Part shown: positions 4,486 to 7,121 of the stretch, in pieces
Position numbering within the stretch: position 1 is the stretch's first letter
Layout of the letters: each line of letters begins with the position of its first letter
DNA from: an uncultured Clostridia bacterium
Lineage (GTDB): Bacteria > Bacillota > Clostridia > Christensenellales > Aristaeellaceae
DNA: 64,000 nt
NCBI GenBank assembly: GCA_946542235.1
Contig: CAMNKK010000001.1
Span: 1-64,000 of the forward strand
Direction of reading: 5' to 3'
Position numbers and translations under genes: made by a program
Notes under the pieces: model-generated
The model's database searches: none
Told to the model about the DNA's origin: nothing
What the model saw: only the letters and a program-made list of their open reading frames with translations

Positions 4486-6912
4486 TCAATAGTTTACCCT
4501 CATTCTGTCCGTAAGCAGGAATGGCGTATCCTTCTGTACCTGCTGCAGAACCCTGAGCGCATCCGTATCCAGTGCAATCATCGGCTGATAATCGTTGACC
4601 CTGCTGCCAGAGGAAGAACTGGTCAGAACGGGGATCAGATTCAACTCCATCTGATGATCCTCCCGTTCAGGATAGATCTTCACCTGCAGAAGCATCGCGT
4701 CATAGGTCGTTAGGCGAAGCGTCCCGCCAAAAACAAGGTTTCCCAGGCTGTAGACAACGGGCATTCCATCAATCCAGTCCACACCCTGAACCACATGGGG
4801 ATGATGTCCCACAACCAGGTCTGCCCCAGCCCGATAGCAGGCTCTCGCCATCGCTTCCTGCAGTACATTGTGGTTCTCTTCATATTCTGTTCCCCAATGG
4901 CACTGGTAAATGATATATTCTGCTCCTTTCTCCTTCAGCTCCCGGATATCCGTACCTATAATGTCCGGATTCAGACAGTAATTGGTTTCGCGGCAGCCGC
5001 CAAATCCGAACAGGTGTCCCCCGATCTCCAGAATTATATTATATCCATTTCCGCAGTAAGGAATTCTGTCCTCCAGCGTCTGCAGGGTGGACCGATACCC
5101 TTCTTCACCATAATCAACCGTATGATTATTGGCTATATTTACCAGATCAATATGGCCTTCTTCCAGTGCCTGAACATATTCTGTCAGTCCCCGGAACCTC
5201 CAGGCTTTGGTAATGTCCTCGTTTCGGCCATCATCCTTCAGTACGCACTCCAGATTTACCACGGTCAGATCATCTTTCGAAAACAGGGATTGCAGGGCCG
5301 CAAAAGGCCAGCCCATTCCCTTTTTCCGGAGATAGGCCGGCAGTCCGTCCTCCAGCCCGTAATAAGCTTCCCGACCTCCCAGCACAACGTCGCCGCCGAA
5401 GGTGATCGTGATATGCTCTTCATCCTCTTCGCCGGTTTCAACAAGCCATGCTTTTTCCAGTCCTTCCAGAAGATTCGGCGTATTGCCCGTTATTATTCTC
5501 TGCAGACTGGTTCGTTCCTCCGGATCATCCAGGACAATAATCCTGGTATGATACGGCAGATGAGTCCAGAACCAATAAGCATTGATTCCCTGCCCGCTGG
5601 GCTTTTCCTGAACCCTGATGCAGGCGTGGGAGGCTTTCGTGCCCAGATATACCTCTCCGGGAATCATATCCTTTTTCCCGGATTCGTTCCAGGCATATGG
5701 AATCTGATGAAGGAGGTTTCCCCCGTCATACCTGATTACAAAGTCATATTTAAGGCCATTGGTAGAGTAATCACTCATATGGTAGTCTGTCAGAAAACTG
5801 CCTGCGGCAGTCTCCTGATACAGCTCGCCCTTGGCCATCCGTCCTGTGGAGACAAGCAGGGTATCAATCTTTTTCCCCTGATGATATACCGTCAGCGTCT
5901 GATATTTTTTGTCTACCAGGAGACCGTATTCAGTCTGCGGACGAACCACCATCAGCACCCTGCGGGGTACCCATCCTTCCACCGGAGAGCCGTCTTCGTG
6001 GTTCCATGCGCTGATTCTGACCCATTTGTCCCGTATTTCCAGCACCGATACAGCCTGGCTCTGTCCATGAAGCGTACCCAGCACCCGGCTTTCCTGATCC
6101 GGTTCCTCAAACACCTTCTGGTGAGACGTGTTATTAATATTGATCACGGTCGCGGGAGCAATCATTTTCTCCCAGATTTCCTGATCGCTGTCCTCCCGGG
6201 ACGGCATGATATCCCCCGTTACTTCCAGTGAGAGCACCGGTCGCTTTCCTTCCCTGACCTCCAGCATGAATTCCCTGGCGTAGGAAGGATGTCTCTGCCC
6301 GTATACGGATACACGATATTTGCCCTCGGGCAGTTTTTTTCGTCCCGTCAGCGCATAATAGGAAATATGATTGACTCTGGCACCTTTTGACTGATGGCTC
6401 GACTTCAGAATCAATTCATCGCTTTCCGCGTCATAGAATTCCGAGACCAGCTGATCCGTGTACAGAATTTTGAACTCAAGAAACCAATCTCCCGCATCTG
6501 AAAGATAAACCGTGGGGTCGCTGGGCAGCGCAAACAGGATCGCCTGCTGCGCCGGTCCAACCTGAATCATCGCGCTGCAGGTCAGCGTAATTCCGGACAC
6601 TCCTGAAAATGTTCCGTCAATTACAAAGGATTTTTTGGCCATCCGTTCTTCATTCCATCCAAGTCCGTCCCAGATAATCTGGGTTTTCCCGGAAGAAACT
6701 TCCTTTTCGATGACGCGATAAACTGTATGCTCGTCATGAATCTTCAACAAGACTGTTCCGTCTTCAGGCGCAAGCACAACAATAGGATTGTCCTGGTACC
6801 CGGAGATTTCACCGGGAACGCTGATCTGAAAAGAGCCCTCGCCAAAGCCTTTCCCACAGAGAAAGATGAAAAAGAAGATCAGCAAAGCTGTGATCATTTT
6901 TCGCTGGTTCAT
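4486..6912 (-). CDS. secreted multidomain protein: SH3-like region, L,D-transpeptidase (YkuD) and CapA/PgsA-type metallophosphatase domain
   Basis: N-terminal signal/TM; GWVPRRVLMV SH3-like end; DYHMSDYSTNG...SHACIRV (YkuD S-H-G-C-like site); ITFGGDVVLGG...NIANNHTVDYGEEG...VVGHHPHVVQG...YSLGNLVFGG (CapA motifs). Confidence 0.85.
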   Translation of the reverse strand: MNQRKMITALLIFFFIFLCGKGFGEGSFQISVPGEISGYQDNPIVVLAPEDGTVLLKIHDEHTVYRVIEKEVSSGKTQIIWDGLGWNEERMAKKSFVIDGTFSGVSGITLTCSAMIQVGPAQQAILFALPSDPTVYLSDAGDWFLEFKILYTDQLVSEFYDAESDELILKSSHQSKGARVNHISYYALTGRKKLPEGKYRVSVYGQRHPSYAREFMLEVREGKRPVLSLEVTGDIMPSREDSDQEIWEKMIAPATVININNTSHQKVFEEPDQESRVLGTLHGQSQAVSVLEIRDKWVRISAWNHEDGSPVEGWVPRRVLMVVRPQTEYGLLVDKKYQTLTVYHQGKKIDTLLVSTGRMAKGELYQETAAGSFLTDYHMSDYSTNGLKYDFVIRYDGGNLLHQIPYAWNESGKKDMIPGEVYLGTKASHACIRVQEKPSGQGINAYWFWTHLPYHTRIIVLDDPEERTSLQRIITGNTPNLLEGLEKAWLVETGEEDEEHITITFGGDVVLGGREAYYGLEDGLPAYLRKKGMGWPFAALQSLFSKDDLTVVNLECVLKDDGRNEDITKAWRFRGLTEYVQALEEGHIDLVNIANNHTVDYGEEGYRSTLQTLEDRIPYCGNGYNIILEIGGHLFGFGGCRETNYCLNPDIIGTDIRELKEKGAEYIIYQCHWGTEYEENHNVLQEAMARACYRAGADLVVGHHPHVVQGVDWIDGMPVVYSLGNLVFGGTLRLTTYDAMLLQVKIYPEREDHQMELNLIPVLTSSSSGSRVNDYQPMIALDTDALRVLQQVQKDTPFLLTDRMRVNY

Positions 6913-7034
6913 GCGCTTCCCTTTCAATAAGTGTATTCCCGTTCATGTTGAAAAACAAGTTTACAGCATGATACATGCTGAACCCGGAAAAGCAGTTGAA
7001 AATGAAATGAGGATGCATAAGCTGCATCCTCCGC

Positions 7035-7121
7035 GGAGAGTTAGGGATTCGAACCCTAGGTGAGGTATCACCCCACACACGATTTCCAGTCGTGCGCCTT
7101 AGACCACTCAGCCAACTCTCC
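7035..7121 (-). tRNA. tRNA-Ser (anticodon GGA)
   Basis: GGAGAGTTGGCTGAGTGGTCTAAGGCGCACGACTGGAAATCGTG...GGGTTCGAATCCCTAACTCTCC; anticodon loop CTGGAAA; long variable arm. Confidence 0.95.

Follow-up and report, generated by a model that had tools for sequence, protein, structure and literature searches.

An L,D-transpeptidase fused to a CapA domain in a family of Clostridia, and the repeated decay of the CapA half at one locus

The gene and its domains

The window analysed here is a 64,000-nucleotide stretch of contig CAMNKK010000001.1 from an uncultured gut bacterium of the Clostridia (Aristaeellaceae), whose genome is a draft of 157 contigs (86% complete). On its reverse strand lies one uninterrupted open reading frame (ORF), 4486–6912, which has no internal stop and encodes 808 amino acids. 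A Shine-Dalgarno-like AAAGGGAAG, read from the sequence, stands just 5' of the ATG at 6912. The ORF finder also gives a TTG start at 6927; as it lies directly 5' of this stretch, the ATG is the more probable start. The features of the gene are as follows.

4486..6912, minus strand: whole gene, a putatively exported Ig-Ig-SH3-LDT-CapA protein of 808 aa plus stop (ORF and translation; full-length orthologs)
6917..6924, minus strand: Shine-Dalgarno-like AAAGGGAA 5' of the ATG (sequence reading)
6838..6912, minus strand: putative signal peptide or membrane segment, residues 1–25 (hydrophobic MNQRKMITALLIFFFIFLCGKGFGEG; model helix 3–18)
6193..6834, minus strand: two beta-rich Ig-like domains, residues about 27–240 (strands in a low-confidence model; Foldseek Ig-type)
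5959..6114, minus strand: SH3-like domain, residues 267–318 (Pfam SH3_3, 22.3 bits, under the cut-off of 27)
5515..5928, minus strand: YkuD L,D-transpeptidase (LDT) domain, residues 329–466 (Pfam YkuD, PF03734, 39.2 bits against a cut-off of 23.4)
5707..5709, minus strand: His402, upstream histidine of the LDT site (kept in all orthologs whose LDT motif is intact)
5611..5631, minus strand: LDT nucleophile motif SHACIRV, residues 428–434, with Cys431 (sequence; SHAC/SHGC pattern over orthologs)
4726..5409, minus strand: CapA (PGA_cap) metallophosphoesterase-fold domain, residues 502–729 (PF09587, 170 bits against a cut-off of 27; Foldseek; ligand table)
4489..4725, minus strand: C-terminal extension of the CapA half, residues 730–808 (kept in orthologs)

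A preliminary description of this DNA had read the gene as a single polypeptide joining SH3-like, L,D-transpeptidase and CapA domains. The domain search agrees with it: both YkuD and PGA_cap were found above their cut-offs in the one ORF. The SH3-like domain stands as a weak call only, because its SH3_3 match is below the cut-off. The YkuD match itself spans residues 329–436; the domain extends to about residue 466, and a short linker leads from there to CapA. The two N-terminal Ig-like domains were absent from the preliminary description. The Pfam search gave no match over residues ~27–240, and the N-terminal Foldseek matches were of Ig type, LdtMt2 among them. AlphaFold models built from seven sequences reached a mean pLDDT of 58.6 (full protein) and 50.0 (SH3-LDT part), with confidence below 50 across most of the YkuD domain in both runs. 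We therefore base the YkuD assignment on the Pfam match and the motif and make no structural claim for it.

The candidate LDT residues H402, S428, H429, C431 and R433 are present in the window and conserved in the active-site table of the orthologs. The published YkuD motif consensus is (S/T)XGCh(R/N) (PMC10434034). The preliminary description placed SHACIRV correctly and pointed to Ala in place of the usual Gly of SHGC. This substitution is real, but comparison of orthologs identifies it as a clade-level variant and not as damage. The residue before the Cys is Ala in the window and the majority of its genus, and Gly in most other genera and in the clade of the genus that lacks CapA. On the tree, SHAC originates at the base of the genus, with SHGC in the CapA-less clade (L113, L115, L116, L117). 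Two further orthologs, L036 and L047, read SQGC, which the consensus permits (PMC10434034). The change of Gly to Ala could alter activity. The window protein very probably has LDT activity.

In the CapA half, the stretches GDVVLGG, NNHTVDYG and GHHPHVVQG are all present as described, and so are the PGA_cap ligand motifs GD, NLE, NNHxxD, HWG and GxHPH. The candidate ligand set in the window is D508, E555, N596, H597, D600, H672, H704 and H706.

Distribution of the fusion and decay of its CapA half

By a hand count from the table, LDT and CapA share one ORF in about 66 of 300 genomes from the taxonomic family of the window, so the gene is not an assembly join. A frameshift or assembly artefact, which the preliminary description had named as a possible source of the fusion, has a practically negligible probability: the window genome is a many-contig draft and nothing else spoke for an artefact, while full-length orthologs with 65–70% identity come from many independent assemblies, including near-complete genomes with intact fusions such as G091 (2 contigs). 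Every full-length match in the order sample came from the same family, and the window itself was the sole full-length match in the phylum sample. The fusion was not found in the other sampled order or phylum genomes, in searches that scored at most 3–4 candidates per genome and that rarer fusions might escape. The closest records in public databases come from metagenome assemblies of ruminant-gut Clostridia. The window genome has six PGA_cap and four YkuD profile matches. Among its extracted ORFs, only that at 4486–6912 has both domains; the remaining YkuD ORFs have SHGC, and CapA stands alone in the ORFs that clearly encode it. We regard the fusion as a variant, specific to this lineage, of an LDT with an accessory domain.

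The window gene has housekeeping neighbours. An RlmL-like methyltransferase gene is convergent with it and ends 27 bases away, and tRNA-Ser, tmRNA and SmpB lie on the other side. In the genus the order is (SmpB) - tmRNA - tRNA-Leu - gene - RlmL - DarA - holB - RicT, the gene names being our reading of the translations. In the window and its close relatives it is a tRNA-Ser (window 7033–7121) that adjoins the gene, and other genus members have tRNA-Leu there, which is a local tRNA rearrangement. The synteny is common to orthologs with an intact CapA domain, a pseudo-CapA domain, a remnant or no CapA at all.

These forms make up a stepwise decay series. All CapA ligands are present in the window clade and in L018–L024; in L015 one His of GHHPH is replaced by Gln. 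The ligands are lost in L029/L118 and L030/L119. Seven genomes (L048/L107, L104–L106, L108–L110), three of them near-closed assemblies of 1–2 contigs, encode a full-length CapA-like domain in which every ligand is replaced. Only a remnant of the C-terminal half of CapA is left in L111 and L112, and CapA is wholly absent from L113–L117. PGA_cap still recognises the pseudo-domains and the remnants, except for L108, which is under the cut-off. H402, S428, H429, C431 and R433 are kept through the whole series. Altogether, 16 of the 30 genus orthologs examined have lost the CapA ligands or the domain and kept the LDT triad. Since several close relatives have lost the site or the whole domain with the wall half intact, CapA here has the look of a helper module and not of a capsule maker.

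In a tree built from the Ig-SH3-LDT part only, the genus forms one clade inside the genera with intact fusions, and the intact fusion stands both outside and around the losses. The loss of CapA requires three changes on a quick tree and two on a careful one; it occurred independently at least twice and probably three times. There was no sign that extra standalone CapA genes offset the lost half: the five CapA-less genomes G204, G211, G224, G242 and G263 have 3–4 PGA_cap genes, compared to 5–7, fusion included, in genomes with the intact fusion. The reverse loss is also found. L128 (G099:C37) has intact CapA ligands and has lost the LDT residues (the six tabulated positions read Q, G, V, G, S, L), and both sites are lost in L133 and L134. 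The former (L133:1147-4326, G139:C15) is a 1060-aa relative with a long acidic C-terminal repeat tail (STQISIMKPEKTD...).

We estimated dN/dS by the Nei-Gojobori method; each value is an average over one pair, at a dS that is moderate to high. The four unsaturated pairs gave 0.12, 0.17, 0.20 and 0.29 for the pseudo-CapA domain, which resembles the values for the Ig domains and for intact CapA (0.10–0.30). The LDT part of the same pairs gave 0.04–0.10. At about 0.12–0.29, the dead CapA domain is not drifting freely. Of the invariant positions, the pseudo forms keep 26 of 82 in CapA and 73 of 85 in the LDT half. None of the 26 is a metal ligand; core residues are kept. On this sequence record, the pseudo-CapA domain appears to be retained as a non-catalytic module. 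That it serves for binding or regulation in the pseudo-clade is a conjecture to which we give about an even chance.

The possible role of the CapA half

The preliminary description proposed that peptidoglycan modification is coupled to the attachment or release of a surface polymer; on this view CapA would deal with a capsule-type polymer and the LDT would join it to the wall. One part of this idea is supported, in that the association of LDT and CapA recurs. Besides the family-wide fusion, five genus genomes (L203, L204, L205, L206, L207) carry a second, co-directional cassette LDT - AsnA - NAGPA (a phosphodiester glycosidase) - CapA. The window genome has a partial cassette, AsnA-NAGPA-CapA, on the short contig C132 (L208), with an LGT gene beyond, and the CapA of this cassette is the closest standalone paralog of the window CapA domain. 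No NAGPA gene adjoins the fused gene. CapA is also fused to VanX-like D-Ala-D-Ala dipeptidases (Peptidase_M15) in two other families (L083:706-2409 and L084:913-2646, in G596 and G571), with M15 before CapA in one and after it in the other. Among 78 CapA ORFs scanned, chosen partly by length, M15 was the sole recognisable enzyme partner.

Our preferred reading, at a probability of roughly 0.6, is that a secreted, Ig- and SH3-bearing YkuD LDT gained a C-terminal CapA in the ancestor of the family, and that CapA is an accessory module acting on or binding the wall. The Ig and SH3 domains would hold the protein at the wall. Cys431 would attack a stem-peptide donor, which may then be passed to an amine acceptor, giving a 3-3 cross-link or an attachment. 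CapA would act on or bind a wall component bearing a phosphoester or carboxylate near the site of cross-linking. Once its chemistry is lost, selection could still maintain the fold in a binding or regulatory role, or the domain could be deleted and the LDT go on working without it. Taken alone, an action of CapA on the wall is evenly balanced in our judgement. The leading candidate for its target is a phosphodiester-linked wall glycan, because NAGPA neighbours CapA in the sister cassette; a phosphodiester-linked component as the target is a tentative suggestion, somewhat under even odds.

The ligands of CapA bear on its chemistry. The best sequence and fold match of the CapA half, and its nearest solved relative, is the lasso-peptide epimerase MslH (Foldseek best; 8GQ9). 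In MslH, E44, N87, H259 and H261 hold one Ca(II), alongside two His/Asp dyads, a site rearranged from the two-metal site of YmdB, and the metal binds the C-terminal carboxylate of the peptide (PMC10406935). In our alignment E555 corresponds to E44, N596-H597-D600 to N87-H88-D91 and H706 to H295; H704 lies opposite Gly293. The order of the motifs pairs D508 with D11 and H672 with H259. The set looks like the two-metal YmdB type, since H704 is kept where MslH has Gly293. We infer through MslH that the window CapA keeps the ancestral two-metal ligand set.

It is rather unlikely that the CapA half is instead an enzyme of the MslH kind, an epimerase or an editor of C-terminal residues, working on the peptide carboxylate of stem peptides and not a phosphoesterase. 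The closest solved relative is an epimerase and not a phosphatase, which counts against the phosphoesterase reading; its metal holds a peptide carboxylate (PMC10406935), and the VanX-like peptidases fused to CapA likewise act on peptide C-termini. However, the window reaches only 50.5 on the MslH-type epimerase model NF038314, whose cut-off is 700, and both the retained H704 and the phosphodiester glycosidase of the sister cassette point the other way.

The capsule-type coupling proposed at first seems equally improbable to us. It is favoured by the recurring LDT/CapA association and by the NAGPA neighbour in the sister cassette. However, the poly-gamma-glutamate kind of polymer is rejected: CapC (PF14102) was found in none of 41 genus genomes (the window genome and 40 relatives), nor in the M15-CapA genomes, and was found in the B. 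subtilis control. An obligatory coupling of two activities is unsupported because over half of the genus orthologs examined kept the LDT triad after losing CapA chemistry.

We consider it less probable still that two independent exported enzymes were joined neutrally and have no functional tie. The halves lose their sites independently, as the dead LDT with intact CapA in L128 and the commoner reverse case illustrate, and some species have deleted CapA. Against this, the fusion is conserved across the family, dN/dS is well under 1 for either half, and LDT and CapA also occur as separate adjacent genes, as CapA does in fusions with M15.

The preferred reading, an LDT with an accessory wall module, can be carried further only speculatively. 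CapA-like proteins occur in 221 of 300 sampled phylum genomes and, to our knowledge, are mostly labelled as capsule synthesis proteins without evidence. Our literature search returned no relevant work tying YkuD or peptidoglycan to the CapA family, PGA_cap or PF09587. We would suggest, as a possibility short of an even chance, that the CapA family in Clostridia-like bacteria is a peptidoglycan-acting module that partners stem-peptide enzymes (LDTs, VanX-like peptidases) and not capsule synthases, and that one genus presents, at one syntenic locus, the passage from an enzyme to a non-catalytic part of an LDT that is kept by selection. A CapA that is fused to a wall cross-linker, adjacent to it or decaying beside it offers a direct handle on the function of the family. 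The orthologs at this one locus supply natural controls: some are intact, some have a dead active site and some have no CapA. The main value of the system lies in this natural decay series and in the link of the CapA family to stem-peptide enzymes.

Comparison with known systems

MslH (8GQ9; PMC10406935) shares the fold family of the CapA half, and equivalents of its D11, E44, N87, H88, D91 and H295 are present; the window differs in having H704 in place of Gly293 and in scoring far under the cut-off of the MslH model. The Asp, Glu, Asn-His-Asp, His and His-x-His set agrees with the residues given for the two-metal phosphodiesterase YmdB in PMC10406935, a likeness drawn through the MslH paper. 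Like CapA/PgsA of poly-gamma-glutamate synthesis, the window protein has a high-scoring PGA_cap domain, but this domain is fused to an LDT in a genus without the CapC partner. The tandem Ig-like domains ahead of YkuD recall LdtMt2-type enzymes (Ig-Ig-YkuD), and LdtMt2 is among the Foldseek matches of the low-confidence window model; the window protein differs from them in its intervening SH3-like domain, its SHAC motif and the CapA domain after YkuD. In LdtPae1 of Pseudomonas aeruginosa, the active LDT domain precedes a second domain that is catalytically dead and is proposed to bind peptidoglycan (PMC10434034). Some relatives of the window protein likewise have an LDT domain followed by a dead second domain. 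In LdtPae1, however, that domain is a YkuD duplicate, whereas here it is CapA, intact in the window and dead in those relatives.
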